NCBI RefSeq assembly: GCF_001632845.1
Contig: NZ_CP011994.1
Coordinates: forward strand, 248,001-312,000
Length of the DNA: 64,000 bases
Source: Ectothiorhodospira sp. BSL-9
GTDB lineage: Bacteria > Pseudomonadota > Gammaproteobacteria > Ectothiorhodospirales > Ectothiorhodospiraceae
Direction: 5' to 3'
A program made the translations under genes and the position numbers. Shown one piece after another: positions 40,007-45,645 of the stretch (position 1 is its first letter; the number at the start of each line of letters is the position of its first letter). The notes below the pieces were generated by a model that worked only from the letters and a program-made list of their open reading frames with translations, was not told where the DNA came from and ran no database searches.

Positions 40007-40471
40007 ATGAACAGCAAGCGTCGAGTGTTTCTCAAGGGCACCCTGGCGGCAGGCACCGTGGGGGTGGCCGTAGGCGCCGGCCTGCTCACACCCAGCACCG
40101 TACTGGCCAGTGCCCGGGAGGGTTTCGAGGCCGGGTCAATCAGTGATGCACTGCAATCCGTGATGGGATCGGACAGCCACGACTCGGGCGACATCACCAT
40201 CAGCGCTCCGGAACTGGCAGAAAACGGTGCCGTGGTACCCATCACCGTGGAATCCAGCCTCACCGGCGTAACGGACATCGCCATCCTGGCGGCCGCCAAC
40301 AACACCCCGCTGACCTCCAGCTACAAGCTGGGTGAGGGCACCAAGGCCTACGTGGCTACCCGCATCAAGATGGGCGAGAGCTCCGACATTGTTGCCGTGC
40401 TCAAGTCCAACGGGCAGCTCTACAGCAGCTCGCGGGAAGTCAAGGTCACCATCGGCGGATGCGGCGGCTGA
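40007..40471 (+). CDS. soxY: Sulfur carrier subunit SoxY
   Basis: 154 aa. A Tat signal with RRVFLKG at residues 5-11 and a hydrophobic core is followed by the mature domain. The C-terminus is GGCGG, with the swinging-arm Cys152 that carries sulfur intermediates covalently in the periplasm. GGAGG precedes the start. soxZ follows 45 bp downstream. Confidence 0.97.
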   Translation: MNSKRRVFLKGTLAAGTVGVAVGAGLLTPSTVLASAREGFEAGSISDALQSVMGSDSHDSGDITISAPELAENGAVVPITVESSLTGVTDIAILAAANNTPLTSSYKLGEGTKAYVATRIKMGESSDIVAVLKSNGQLYSSSREVKVTIGGCGG

Positions 40472-40516
40472 TCCACCAGCCCGCGCACCCCCAGGCCCAA
40501 ACCAGGAGAACCTGCC

Positions 40517-40825
40517 ATGTCCAGCATTCGCGTACGCGCTCAGCTCAGTGACGGTGTAACCAATGTCCGCGCCTTGATCAGTCATCCCATGGAGACAGGT
40601 CAGAGAACCGACAGCGGCGGTAACACCATTCCGGCCCACTACATCACCGAGGTCAAAGCCAAGGTGGGGGATCGCGAGATCCTCACCGCCAACTGGGGCC
40701 CGGCCATCTCTCGCAACCCCTATCTGTCCTTCCAGTTCGAGGGTGCCTCTTCCGGCGATACCCTGGATATCTCCTGGGTGGACAACAACGGGGAATCGGA
40801 CAGCACTCAGGTGCAGATCAGCTAA
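40517..40825 (+). CDS. soxZ: Sulfur carrier subunit SoxZ
   Basis: 102 aa, no signal peptide of its own (exported with SoxY). Has the Ig-like family motifs HPMETGQR and HYITEV near residues 23-45. Forms the SoxYZ heterodimer. AGGAG lies upstream of the ATG. Confidence 0.96.
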   Translation: MSSIRVRAQLSDGVTNVRALISHPMETGQRTDSGGNTIPAHYITEVKAKVGDREILTANWGPAISRNPYLSFQFEGASSGDTLDISWVDNNGESDSTQVQIS

Positions 40826-40937
40826 CAATCATACAATCATAAGGCCGGGAGCCTTGCAGGCTTCACCGGCTGTACGAGTAACAGGTTTGTAGTACGTCGC
40901 GCCATTCGTTCCCCCGGGAACGGCCACCAAGAGGAGC

Positions 40938-40966
40938 GACCCGACCACCCAGCGCGGTGGCGGGTC
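40938..40966. other. Strong hairpin between soxZ and soxB
   Basis: GACCCG-A-CCACC pairs with GGTGG-CGGGTC. It lies about 110 bp after soxZ, before the T-rich terminator. It could be part of a 3' structure protecting soxYZ mRNA. Confidence 0.45.
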
Positions 40967-41004
40967 ACGGCAGGAAAAAACATAATCATACCTGCCATTT
41001 GAGC

Positions 41005-41031
41005 AAGCCCGGTTTTCGCCGGGCTTTTCTT
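41005..41031 (+). terminator. Rho-independent terminator after soxYZ
   Basis: AAGCCCGG and CCGGGCTT with a TTTTCG loop, followed by TTCTTT. It separates soxYZ from soxB, which would then need its own promoter or read-through. Confidence 0.8.
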
Positions 41032-41081
41032 TGCATGGGAAAGACGCCGGACAACGGCGCATCATGTCTGGAGGAAGCTAG

Positions 41082-42854
41082 ATGAATCTATCCCGCCGAG
41101 AATTCCTGCAGGTCCTGGCCGCCGCCGGTGTGGCCGGTTTCTCACTGCCCGCCAGTGCCCGACTCGGGGCCGCCGGCAAGAATCCCAGCGACCCTTACGA
41201 GTTACCGGCCAAGGGCAACGTGTCGATCCTGCACTTCACCGACTGCCATGGGCAGTTGCTGCCCGTGTATTTCCGCGAGCCCCATGTGAACCTGGGCGTG
41301 GCCGACATGAAAGGCCGCCCACCGCACCTGGTGGGCAAGCACCTGCTGGAGCACTATGGCATCGACCACCCCGGCCTGCTCTCCCACGCCTATACCTACC
41401 TGGACTACGTGAAACTGGCGGAACACTACGGTCGCGTGGGGGGCTTTGCCCATCTGGCCACGCTGGTGAAAAAAATCCGCGATCAGCGCCCCGGCGCGCT
41501 GCTCCTGGACGGCGGCGACACCTGGGGCGGCGGCTCGGGTACGGGCCTTTGGACCAACGCTCAGGATATGGTGGATGCTCAGCTCAAACTGGGCGTGGAC
41601 ATCATGACCGGCCACTGGGAATACACCTTCGGGGCCGACCGGGTGCGGCAGATCGTGGAAAACGACTTTGCCGGTCATATCGAATTCCTGGCCCAGAACG
41701 TGGTGGACGTGGACTGGGGCGACCGCATCTTCAAGCCCTACACCATCCGTGAGATGAACGGCGTGAACGTGGCCGTGATCGGCCAGTCCTTCCCCTACAC
41801 CCCCATCGCGAATCCACGGCACATGGTGGCCGAGTGGTCCTTTGGCATTCGCCAGCGGGAGATGCAGGAGACGGTGAATGAGGCCCGCGCCGAGGGGGCA
41901 GAGGTGGTGATCCTGCTGTCCCACAACGGCATGGATGTGGACATCAAGCTGGCCCAGGTGGTGGACGGCATCGACGCCATCATGGGCGGGCACACCCACG
42001 ACGCGGTCCCCGCCCCGCTGGAGGTGAAAGGGCCGGAGGGCGGCACCTGCCTGGTCACCAATGGGGGTTCCAACGGCAAGTTCCTGGGCGTGCTGGACCT
42101 GGACTTCCGCGATGGCCGCATCCGCGATTACCAGTACCGTCTGCTGCCGGTATTCGCCAACCTGATCGAACCGGACCCGGACATGGCCCATTACATCGAA
42201 CAGGTGCGCGACCAGGAGGTCACCTTTGATGGCCAGACCTTCAACATGAAGGACAAGCTCTCGGAAGAGCTGGCGGTGAGCGAGGATCTGCTCTACCGGC
42301 GCGGCAATTTCAACGGCACCTTCGATCAACTCATCTGCGATGCCCTGATGGAGCAGGTGGATGCCCAGATTGCCTTCTCGCCGGGCTTTCGCTGGGGCAC
42401 CACGGTCCTGCCCGGCATGCCCATCACCTTCGAACACATCATGGACCAGACCGGCCTCACCTACCCGGCGGTGACACGCAACGAAATGAGCGGTGCCATG
42501 ATCAAGGAGATCCTTGAAGATGTGGCCGACAATCTCTACAACGCGGACCCCTTCTATCAGCAGGGGGGCGACATGGTGCGGGTGGGTGGCCTGAAATACA
42601 GCATCGACCCCACCCGCTCCATTGGCGAGCGCATTGCCGACATGGAACTGAACGGCAAGCCCATCGCCCCCAACGAGAATTACGTGGTGGCCGGCTGGGC
42701 CAGCGTGCAGGAGCAGCCGGCGGGCGACACCGGTCGCAAGATCTGGGACGTGGTGGCCGACTACCTGCGCGACCACGAGACGGTGTCCATCAGCGAACTG
42801 AACGAACCGAGGCTGCGGGGCGTTGAGGGTAATCCGGGGGTTTCCTCGGTTTAA
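41082..42854 (+). CDS. soxB: Thiosulfohydrolase SoxB
   Basis: 590 aa. Tat signal with SRREFLQ near the start. Metallophosphatase-like motifs: HFTDCHGQ, DGGDTWGG, GHWEYTFG and GGHTHDA, which bind the dinuclear Mn site. SoxB hydrolyses the sulfate group off SoxY-bound intermediates. SoxA/X and SoxC/D are not in this window. Confidence 0.97.
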   Translation: MNLSRREFLQVLAAAGVAGFSLPASARLGAAGKNPSDPYELPAKGNVSILHFTDCHGQLLPVYFREPHVNLGVADMKGRPPHLVGKHLLEHYGIDHPGLLSHAYTYLDYVKLAEHYGRVGGFAHLATLVKKIRDQRPGALLLDGGDTWGGGSGTGLWTNAQDMVDAQLKLGVDIMTGHWEYTFGADRVRQIVENDFAGHIEFLAQNVVDVDWGDRIFKPYTIREMNGVNVAVIGQSFPYTPIANPRHMVAEWSFGIRQREMQETVNEARAEGAEVVILLSHNGMDVDIKLAQVVDGIDAIMGGHTHDAVPAPLEVKGPEGGTCLVTNGGSNGKFLGVLDLDFRDGRIRDYQYRLLPVFANLIEPDPDMAHYIEQVRDQEVTFDGQTFNMKDKLSEELAVSEDLLYRRGNFNGTFDQLICDALMEQVDAQIAFSPGFRWGTTVLPGMPITFEHIMDQTGLTYPAVTRNEMSGAMIKEILEDVADNLYNADPFYQQGGDMVRVGGLKYSIDPTRSIGERIADMELNGKPIAPNENYVVAGWASVQEQPAGDTGRKIWDVVADYLRDHETVSISELNEPRLRGVEGNPGVSSV

Positions 42855-42881: not shown

Positions 42882-42906
42882 GAGAGGGGCGAAAACCCCT
42901 CTTCCT
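42882..42906. terminator. Possible hairpin between convergent soxB and cyclase genes
   Basis: GAGAGGGG and CCCCTCTTC with a GAAAA-containing loop. No U-tract, so termination is only possible. Confidence 0.35.
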
Positions 42907-43858
42907 ACCAATCCGCCACCACCTGATCCCGCCCCTTCTGCTTCGCCCGGTACATGGCCGCATCCGCCCGCTGTATCAGGGAGTCCACACCCTCCGTTTC
43001 CCGCCATTCGGCCGCACCGATGCTGGTACTGGGTCTAAAGTCATCATCCAGAGGTCGCAACTCCCGGGTCCGCAAGCGCAAGCGCTCACCCACCTTCATG
43101 GCCACGTCCAAAGAGGTGTCGAGCATGTACAGACCAAACTCCTCGCCACCCAGACGCCCCGGCAGATCCGACACCCGTACCAGGGCGCGCAGCAAATCGG
43201 CGAAGGCCACGAGCACCCGATCTCCCGCCGCGTGGCCGTAGGTATCGTTCACCCGCTTGAAGTGATCCAGATCGATCATCAGGATCGACAGGCGATGCTG
43301 CCGGCTCCTGGCCTGGGCCACACCGGACTCAAGCCGCTCCAGGAAATGGCGACGATTGGCCAGGCGGGTGAGCCCGTCGGTACGGGCCAGTTCCTCGTTC
43401 AAGGCATTCACCCGGGCCAGATCCCGGTTGGCCCGCCTCAGGTCACGCACCAGCCGGGACATGTCCAGGGTGAGGTTGCCCATACGGGCCACCACTTCAT
43501 GATCACCAGCCTCGGCCACTTCGCCTATCAACAGGGTGTGCCCATCCAGGGGATAGGCGTGAAACAGACAGCGCTCCCCCTCCGCCGTGGCGCGAAACAC
43601 CCGGGCCACGGTCTTCTCTTGTGCCTCGCCGGGCTCAATGTCCAGTGGACCGTGTTCGTCACTGAAAAAACGGGCAATGGGCTCCCCGCGCACATCGGCA
43701 AAACCCGCATAACGGGACCTGAAGGCGCTATTGGCGCAGATGATCCGGCCATCCTGCCCCACCTCCAGCACCAGCAAACGTCCCGAATTCACCACATAGT
43801 CCTGCAAGGCCCTGGCCAGATCGGGCCCGGGAGGGGTATCGCGGGTCCCCGGTCTCAT
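42905..43858 (-). CDS. Diguanylate cyclase with N-terminal PAS-like domain
   Basis: 317 aa. Residues about 15-120 look like a PAS domain. The GGDEF domain has the active motif GGEEF (about residue 242), preceded five residues earlier by RVSD, an RxxD inhibitory site. It should make c-di-GMP and be product-inhibited. Its ATG overlaps the stop of the upstream B12-binding protein gene, so the two are translationally coupled. Confidence 0.9.
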   Translation of the reverse strand: MRPGTRDTPPGPDLARALQDYVVNSGRLLVLEVGQDGRIICANSAFRSRYAGFADVRGEPIARFFSDEHGPLDIEPGEAQEKTVARVFRATAEGERCLFHAYPLDGHTLLIGEVAEAGDHEVVARMGNLTLDMSRLVRDLRRANRDLARVNALNEELARTDGLTRLANRRHFLERLESGVAQARSRQHRLSILMIDLDHFKRVNDTYGHAAGDRVLVAFADLLRALVRVSDLPGRLGGEEFGLYMLDTSLDVAMKVGERLRLRTRELRPLDDDFRPSTSIGAAEWRETEGVDSLIQRADAAMYRAKQKGRDQVVADW

Positions 43859-44961
43859 CTGGGGGCACCCAGACTTCGGGCCCAGGCCACCGCGGCCATG
43901 GCACTCTCAAGATGCAGATCCGCGTTGACCGACTGCACCAGCCAGGGAGCCTCATGAAAGGCCTGCCCACCGACCACGATGGGGGTGGCATCATCCGGCC
44001 CCAGGGCCGCCCGCAAACTGGCCACGGTGGAACGGGCCTCGCCCACGTTACCCACCAGCGTGACCGACAGGGCCACGAAGCGAGGGCGCTCCTCCAGCAC
44101 CGTGGCCACCAGGGTTTCCGGAGGCGTGTCGGCGGTCAGCAAGGTGATATCCCAACCATCCAGTTCCAGGCTCACGGCCAGCATCCAGGAACCCATCTCG
44201 TGGAATTCGTTGGACACGGGAGACACCAGCCCGCGACCCCGGTCGCTCTCGGGGAACGGTTGGTCGTAGTAAAGCGCAGCCAGCACCCGATAGACCATGG
44301 CCGTGGTCTGGTGCTCCATGGCCACCGACAGTTGACCGGCCTCCCAGCGAGCCCCCACATCCACCATGGCCGGATAAAACAGGTTTTGCAGCAGCGATTC
44401 ATAGGGCATCCCATCCAGCAACAGGCCATGGCAGCGATCGATCACGCCCGTCGTGTCCCCCTGGATAAGGTGGTCGACGATATACTGATAGTCGTCTTCC
44501 CAGCGAGGCTGCACGGATGCCCGCCGCGTCCGGTACTGGTGCGCGGCCTCGATGAGTTCATCATGGTGCTGCACCATCCACTCATAAATGGGGAGGATCG
44601 CCTCCGCTTCCCGCGCGGGCAGGATCCCGGCAATCGCCTCTTGCCAGGTTTTCCACTCGTGGAGGAAGAAGTCGAAGGACACGCCCTGATTGTGATAAGT
44701 GGCATAGACCCAGGCCAGGGCCTGCTCCAGCAACCGGGCGTCGTTCCCCGCCATGACCTCACCCATGAAGGCGGCATGGTGGCGACGGGTGCTATCCATC
44801 AGCCTTGGCGAATGACTGCCCACCCATTCCCCCAGCCGGGAATCCTGATCCATCCGACGGGCCACGGCATTGACCAGTTCGCCACGGCGCGCGCGAAAGG
44901 CCTCTGCCGCGACTTCCGGTACTGGCAAGGGAGCATGCGTTGTTTTTGGATTCGTTGGCAC
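43855..44961 (-). CDS. Cobalamin-binding signalling protein (CarH-like module)
   Basis: 368 aa. The N-terminal ~150 residues are helical and unassigned. The middle has the B12 cap with W-x9-EH (WEAGQLSVAMEH), the residues that surround the adenosyl group in CarH-type photoreceptors. The C-terminal Rossmann domain has E-F-H-E-M-G, fitting the ExHxxG form of the DxHxxG cobalamin loop. No DNA-binding MerR domain is present. Coupled to the diguanylate cyclase, it could sense light or B12 and act on c-di-GMP. Confidence 0.8.
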   Translation of the reverse strand: MPTNPKTTHAPLPVPEVAAEAFRARRGELVNAVARRMDQDSRLGEWVGSHSPRLMDSTRRHHAAFMGEVMAGNDARLLEQALAWVYATYHNQGVSFDFFLHEWKTWQEAIAGILPAREAEAILPIYEWMVQHHDELIEAAHQYRTRRASVQPRWEDDYQYIVDHLIQGDTTGVIDRCHGLLLDGMPYESLLQNLFYPAMVDVGARWEAGQLSVAMEHQTTAMVYRVLAALYYDQPFPESDRGRGLVSPVSNEFHEMGSWMLAVSLELDGWDITLLTADTPPETLVATVLEERPRFVALSVTLVGNVGEARSTVASLRAALGPDDATPIVVGGQAFHEAPWLVQSVNADLHLESAMAAVAWARSLGAPR

Positions 44962-45060: not shown

Positions 45061-45645
45061 TCAATATATCTTGTGAAAGGCAGCGGTAAAGTCGTTGTCC
45101 AGATAGTCTTCGAGGATCTCCACTCGTGCCCCCAGTGCCTCCCCCTGGGCACGAATCTCCTCCGGCAGATAATAGTTGAAGCGTGATGGTCCCGGCTGCC
45201 CCTTGAGCAGGTTGAATACAAAGGCCTGCCGCGCGGCACCGTAGCAGTGCTGGATGAAGCACCCCGTTTCGTCCCGGGTGAGATTGTTCATGGCCCCGCT
45301 GCACAGATAGAAGTCTGCCTCGGGCAGAGGGTCATGGAGTACATCCCGCAACCATATCTGACATCCTGTGCGCTCACGGGCTGTCTGGATCATGGGCTCG
45401 CATACTTCCAGACCGATATATCCGGCTGGTGGGCCACGATGCTTGCACAGAAAAGTATAGAGATCTCCGAACCCACAGCCGGCATCCACGAGCGTTTTGC
45501 CAGTGAGGTCATGGGGCAGGCAGCGGGCCAATGCAACAAAACGCGCCGTCTGAGTGTAGGCCGAGCGCCAGTGCAGTCCCTGTGGCGTCGCCCCGTGGTT
45601 CGCCATGGCACGGCGGTAGAAGGCCTCATTATCGACTCTGGGCAT
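45061..45645 (-). CDS. Class I SAM-dependent methyltransferase
   Basis: 194 aa with LVDAGCGFGDLYTFL near residue 55 (motif I) and YIGLEVCEPMI (motif Post-I). Substrate unknown. Stands alone: 99 bp from the B12-protein gene and divergent from the DUF4168 gene. Confidence 0.85.
   Translation of the reverse strand: MPRVDNEAFYRRAMANHGATPQGLHWRSAYTQTARFVALARCLPHDLTGKTLVDAGCGFGDLYTFLCKHRGPPAGYIGLEVCEPMIQTARERTGCQIWLRDVLHDPLPEADFYLCSGAMNNLTRDETGCFIQHCYGAARQAFVFNLLKGQPGPSRFNYYLPEEIRAQGEALGARVEILEDYLDNDFTAAFHKIY

Follow-up and report, generated by a model that had tools for sequence, protein, structure and literature searches.

A photocobilin-like B12 protein encoded in overlap with a diguanylate cyclase gene in Ectothiorhodospira sp. 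BSL-9, a candidate two-gene light switch

The window analysed here, a stretch of 64,000 nucleotides from Ectothiorhodospira sp. BSL-9, whose genome is placed in Ectothiorhodospira by its relatives (protein identity 94% to E. haloalkaliphila and 80% to E. marina), contains a gene for a B12-binding protein that overlaps a diguanylate cyclase gene, and the question is whether the two form a switch through which light, or B12, controls c-di-GMP. The original prediction was a CarH-like B12 photoreceptor module coupled to the cyclase. A two-gene light switch of the photocobilin type, with a photocobilin-like protein controlling a separate GGEEF cyclase, is in our view probable, since the B12 protein resembles light sensors, the genes overlap and photosynthetic relatives keep the pair. 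No paper on this B12/cyclase pair was recognised among the matches listed from the open-licence literature.

The overlapping genes and the B12 module

By ORF reading, the B12 gene (43855..44961, minus strand) has a GTG start and encodes 368 residues arranged as a photoglobin domain, a B12 helix bundle and a B12 Rossmann domain, constituting a globin-first photocobilin-like protein. The cyclase gene (42905..43858) is located downstream on the same strand and codes for 317 residues with a PAS-like region (weak match) and a GGDEF diguanylate cyclase domain, and the ORF coordinates place the stop of the B12 gene and the start of the cyclase gene in the same four bases, ATGA (43855..43858, minus strand), as predicted. 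The GGDEF domain (Pfam E 2.1e-44) has the signature GGEEF at residues 237-241 and an inhibitory site RxxD at 228-231, and both the active site and the I-site are intact (GGEEF, D196, N204, D205, R228 and D231). The nearest neighbours of the B12 gene are, besides the cyclase gene, a methyltransferase gene and sox genes. The former encodes a small SAM-type methyltransferase (45061-45645, same strand, about 100 bases upstream) and may be on one transcript with the pair, and soxY, soxZ and soxB (40007-42854) are convergent to it; in G005 (L042) a gene that by eye looks like soxB is likewise convergent at the same place. One weak σ70-like site precedes the pair (45090-45063, minus strand), the scanned region having three such sites with 0.8 expected, and no cobalamin riboswitch or other Rfam family reached the gathering score in the window.

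Two Pfam families match the B12 part above cut-off, B12-binding_2 at residues 161-230 (44272..44481, minus strand, E 3.1e-13) for the helix bundle and B12-binding at residues 243-352 (43906..44235, minus strand, E 5.2e-15) for the Rossmann domain, and they give support that is independent of the motifs. The helix bundle shows GxxW at 203-206 (GARW) and EH at 216-217, and the Rossmann domain contains His254, the predicted cobalt ligand, within NEFHEMG. The motifs W-x9-EH and ExHxxG on which the prediction was built are both found (residues 206-217 and 252-257); W-x9-EH arose in 2.9% of 20,000 shuffles of the protein, and W-x9-EH followed by ExHxxG in 0.17% of 20,000. The claimed lack of a DNA-binding domain also held, the two B12 families being the sole Pfam matches at E<=1. 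A corrinoid methyltransferase protein was considered and rejected, the MtgC_2 model giving 50.1 bits, far under its cut-off of 370, and the upstream methyltransferase being of the small SAM type.

The AlphaFold model (AF2) of the whole protein has a pLDDT of 82.9 with 6 sequences in the alignment. The nearest solved structures to the B12 part are the photocobilins 8j2w and 8j2x (sequence E 1.5e-19, VIA Z 23.4-23.6; 8j2w itself at E 1.5e-19 and Z 23.6), one of which derives from a cyclase fusion; AerR (Z 19.4) and AppA SCHIC (Z 17.5) are further structural relatives. CarH matches at E 1.9e-7 and Z 17.5, and the CarH equivalog model NF052513 gives 36.7 bits where its cut-off is 400. The protein shares with CarH the light-sensing B12 core with the W, the EH and the His ligand, but it has no MerR DNA-binding domain. 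The name CarH-like is too general, as photocobilins are nearer and a globin domain of the photocobilin type is present; because of this N-terminal globin the closest known kind is the photocobilin rather than CarH.

AerR genes lie beside PpsR/CrtJ. In the genome of the window, a B12 gene at about 3250 kb of G000 (L004/L044), which we take to be AerR-like, immediately precedes a PpsR gene (TIGR02040), away from the pair, and its product is without W-x9-EH. The window protein is like the AerR of purple bacteria, which according to the available text of PMC5362033 acts on CrtJ/PpsR, in being a B12-binding protein without HTH from photosynthetic bacteria, but its gene is surrounded by the methyltransferase, cyclase and sox genes and not by PpsR/CrtJ.

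Distribution, conserved pairing and signature residues of the clade

A full-length relative at E<=1e-50 was found in 7 of the 47 genomes of the window's family, itself included (the order-level sample is the same 47 genomes), and the family of Allochromatium palmeri has 13 intact genes, one split gene (G867) and one fragment (G933) in 146 sampled genomes. The class sample (369 genomes, E<=1e-25) and the phylum sample (398 genomes, E<=1e-22) each gave one distant relative besides the query. The split gene of G867 (L059/L063) is interrupted by an insertion encoding resolvase-like and TnpB-like proteins (read by eye), presumably IS607-like, and in G933 (L060) a fragment alone is left beside cyclase remnants. 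The 20 intact proteins group together against nine outgroup proteins (L012, L013, L014, L016, L017, L027, L045, L061 and L062) with support 100/99, in a tree where long branches leave the outer placements unsure. Outside the count of 20 are G867 and G933, the remoter matches L012, L014, L027, L045, L061, L062 and L064, the paralogues L013, L016 and L017, and L015 and L018-L021, which match the B12 part only; the residue table leaves out L064, L015 and L018-L021. L022-L026 are the same genes as the members from G001, G004, G414, G415 and G002, and were counted once and served for structure and alignments.

With G867 and G933 included as carriers, the gene, intact or broken, is present in 22 of the 68 genomes searched that have reaction-centre genes versus 0 of 125 that lack them (7/11 versus 0/36 in the window's family, Fisher 5e-6, and 15/57 versus 0/89 in the A. 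palmeri family, Fisher 2e-7), with Fisher values that are inflated by shared descent and a reaction-centre link that is confounded by it. Some genomes that gave no reaction-centre match (G012, G014, G810 and G882) do carry remoter globin-B12 relatives, and the restriction is therefore a property of the clade and not of the kind.

In all 20 intact members, the window included, the B12 gene has a GGDEF gene as its neighbour (18 found by script, and L052 and L054 by separate inspection), which follows it on the same strand in 19 and is upstream in one (G046). A possible cyclase start at the same four-base offset before the end of the B12 gene is found in 11 of the 20, again including the window. 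With the 41 GGDEF matches in the window's genome, and 3200-3400 genes assumed, the chance of a GGDEF gene at one of two neighbours is about 2.5%. All 20 partner cyclases retain the residues of the active site and the I-site, with the motif GGEEF in 17 and GGEEL in three, and a weak PAS match under the cut-off is present in 6/6 close cyclase relatives scanned, that of the window included, and in neither of two remoter cyclases scanned (L035 and L053). Homology, the predicted structure and the conservation of the gene pair give good support to the central part of the prediction, namely that a photoreceptor module of the B12 type is paired with a diguanylate cyclase. The pair is natural, separate and kept across two bacterial families, and signalling by stand-alone photocobilins is therefore directly testable with it.

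Residues G203, W206, E216, H217 and H254 are kept in all 20 intact members, the window protein included. The combination of W-x9-EH and E/DxH is a photocobilin feature, with a spacing equal to that of SasPcob in the alignment; the photocobilin paper writes the motif spacing as W-(10)x-EH in its available sections (PMC10979010). The signature published for light-responsive B12 proteins (SignatureFinder; PMC11796333, section 8) consists of GxxW, EH, GxxH and GxxxP, and the window protein has the first two but differs from photocobilins in N251 and T276, which break the others (NEFH with N251 for G, and TADTP with T276 for G). The full four-element signature is found in 0/20 clade members, the first position of GxxH being G in one, N in 18 and D in one, and G276 together with P280 occurring in seven. 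Sequence rules for B12 light sensors are affected, as the published signature, read strictly, would miss all 20 of the clade members found here. The residue after the Trp is Glu in all 20 (Glu207 in the window protein), unlike CarH, which has the His of the bis-His light state (His132), while SasPcob has Gln and AbDPcob Tyr (PMC11796333, section 11).

The N-terminal photoglobin domain

The N-terminal 150 residues were not mentioned in the prediction. By fold comparison and profiles, residues about 13-142 (44536..44925, minus strand) constitute a separate, all-helical domain with a predicted globin fold of the phycobiliprotein-like type. The AF2 model of this domain alone has a pLDDT of 86.5 (6 sequences in the alignment), and in VIA-align its Z was 13.9 with smURFP, 11-13 with phycobiliproteins (phycobilisome globins), 12.0 with the globin of the photocobilin 8j2x (8j2x 227-346 on model 15-140) and 11.6 with RsbR, although helical models often reach a Z near 13. 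The heme globin of the cyclase DosC, with Z 12.2, ties with the photocobilin globin, and the fold therefore does not separate bilin from heme globins. Foldseek matches were weak (best E 7e-3). A profile-profile comparison (hhalign) of nine clade N-domains with eight other globin-B12 N-domains, L013 left out, gave 96.1% probability, and it weighs more than the fold scores in the putative globin assignment, for which folds and profiles are the basis. The profile of the nine clade N-domains found none of the PDB sequences at E<=1, and the single N-domain sequence found allophycocyanin ApcD3 at 5e-4 (phmmer). The Pfam family Phycobilisome had no match in the window protein and five close relatives scanned, and in a set of four relatives it was above cut-off in L061, below in L017 and without a match in L045 and L011.

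A globin-like domain fused to the B12 module is a feature shared with photocobilins, and the available sections of PMC10979010 describe the W-x9-EH and E/DxH module together with a photoglobin domain in SasPcob and AbDPcob. In the window the globin is N-terminal and the cyclase is encoded by a separate overlapping gene, unlike in these two; the globin-first order is not new, because photocobilins with the B12 domain first or last are already described there. Photoglobins (Schneider et al. 2022) are likewise described as non-heme, phycobiliprotein-like globins fused to a B12-binding domain, but the CXQD motif reported for them in the available text of PMC10151467 is lacking in the clade, the window protein having M55-D56-S57-T58 at that place.

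The biliverdin pocket of SasPcob has a key Asp (Asp270), which is not found here: in the profile alignment its position is T58 and that of Trp296 is W84, and the spacing of 26 equals the published one. The phmmer alignment to ApcD3 puts the Asp three residues on, at H61, with a gap just after, and the position from the profile alignment was preferred. AbDPcob has His at this position and, according to the same sections of PMC10979010, still binds biliverdin weakly. Asp is present at the position in 0/20 clade members (N in 15, T in three, E in one and S in one) versus six of the nine outgroup proteins, and the W84 position is Trp in 29/29 proteins. A heme oxygenase match was lacking in the window's genome, in all 10 genomes of the genus and in G046, and was found in 2/2 Allochromatium carriers, the two of the 13 intact carriers of that family that this search covered. 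A bacteriophytochrome (PHY-domain) protein as user of biliverdin was also sought in the window's genome, with no match. Since the Asp is absent and the genome has no heme oxygenase match, a second, bilin chromophore is unlikely in this organism.

Proposed light control of the cyclase

Most likely, the cyclase is controlled by light through AdoCbl and by contact between the proteins, the bilin part having been lost or altered. AdoCbl would be bound between the helix bundle and the Rossmann domain, with His254 below the cobalt and the adenosyl group surrounded by W206, E216 and H217; light absorbed by AdoCbl would break the cobalt-carbon bond, and the protein would rearrange and alter the activity of the GGEEF cyclase by direct contact, so that c-di-GMP would follow light. 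We infer the cofactor, its binding and photolysis, and the contact from the known systems. In AbDPcob (Zhang et al. 2024, PMC10979010) a B12 module regulates a diguanylate cyclase by light: AdoCbl reduces its activity in darkness, and illumination increases it more than 10-fold. Separate photocobilins alter the isolated AbDPcob cyclase in trans, apparently by contact, as seen in mixtures of purified components, namely this cyclase, the photocobilin domain of AbDPcob itself and a photocobilin from a different organism. By analogy, photolysis of AdoCbl would make the window protein either release or restrain its cyclase; the sign is not predictable because SasPcob carrying only AdoCbl had the reverse effect on the test cyclase, indicating that the sign can reverse without biliverdin (same sections of PMC10979010). 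The photoglobin would probably be a structural or signalling part, or hold an unusual ligand, rather than serve as the usual biliverdin antenna. A tentative extension, to which we give a clearly minor chance, is that the clade, found here in reaction-centre genomes only, gave up biliverdin and constitutes a natural two-protein relay from light to c-di-GMP in which the photoglobin pocket is reused, for example for another tetrapyrrole of the photosynthetic pathway or for gripping the cyclase.

The 368-residue protein could instead report the form of cobalamin, the redox state or oxygen, and tune the cyclase by metabolic state, with B12 as its ligand, or with heme bound either in the B12-type fold (as in AppA SCHIC) or in the globin. 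The structural relationship of the B12 part to AppA SCHIC and AerR, the tie between the DosC and photocobilin globins, the two altered signature elements and the weak PAS match of the cyclase itself are consistent with this, but the W, the EH and the cobalt-ligand His, which are marks of light-responsive B12 modules, are kept in all 20 members of the clade, which were found solely among reaction-centre genomes, and we consider such a sensor unlikely. A full photocobilin with two chromophores, AdoCbl and biliverdin, and sensitivity to red as well as green is more improbable still: the missing Asp, kept in most of the outgroup, and the lack of a heme oxygenase match in the window's genus and G046 argue against it, while the kept globin fold, the invariant Trp with its published spacing, the heme oxygenase matches of the Allochromatium carriers and the weak biliverdin binding of AbDPcob speak for it. 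That both genes are merely co-transcribed and belong to separate pathways is very improbable; contact between the products is inferred, and the correlation of gene distances in the pair (Spearman 0.91) is what shared descent alone is expected to give, but the genes stay adjacent where identity has fallen to 33% and also in G046, where their order is reversed, and a fusion of the same parts is known from the available sections of PMC10979010.

AdoCbl-based control of the cyclase by light would be a possible route by which purple sulfur bacteria tie light to motility or attachment. Light input is tied to c-di-GMP enzymes in purple sulfur bacteria also in BldP of Allochromatium vinosum, a flavin BLUF phosphodiesterase (review PMC8846402), and in PPD of some Chromatiaceae, a PYP/bacteriophytochrome/cyclase/phosphodiesterase hybrid (PMC8877833). 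The available text of review PMC8846402 has no match to cobalamin or B12, and that of PMC8877833 and PMC10224512 names no B12 photoreceptor.

Judging from gene neighbourhoods, the globin-B12 module seems to be used more widely with separate output enzymes, since other globin-B12 genes adjoin genes for GGDEF-EAL, GGDEF and histidine kinase proteins. No adjoining GGDEF gene was seen for L012, L027, L045, L061 and L062. A second globin-B12 protein is encoded in three Ectothiorhodospira genomes (L037, L038 and L040 in G002, G008 and G004), in all three divergent to a GGDEF-EAL gene, with the Pfam domains confirmed for L037, and in G012 a GGDEF gene is located downstream of the globin-B12 gene. The remoter B12 genes L045, L061 and L064 are upstream of separate histidine kinase genes, and an N-terminal globin is present in L045 and L061, with none recognised in L064.
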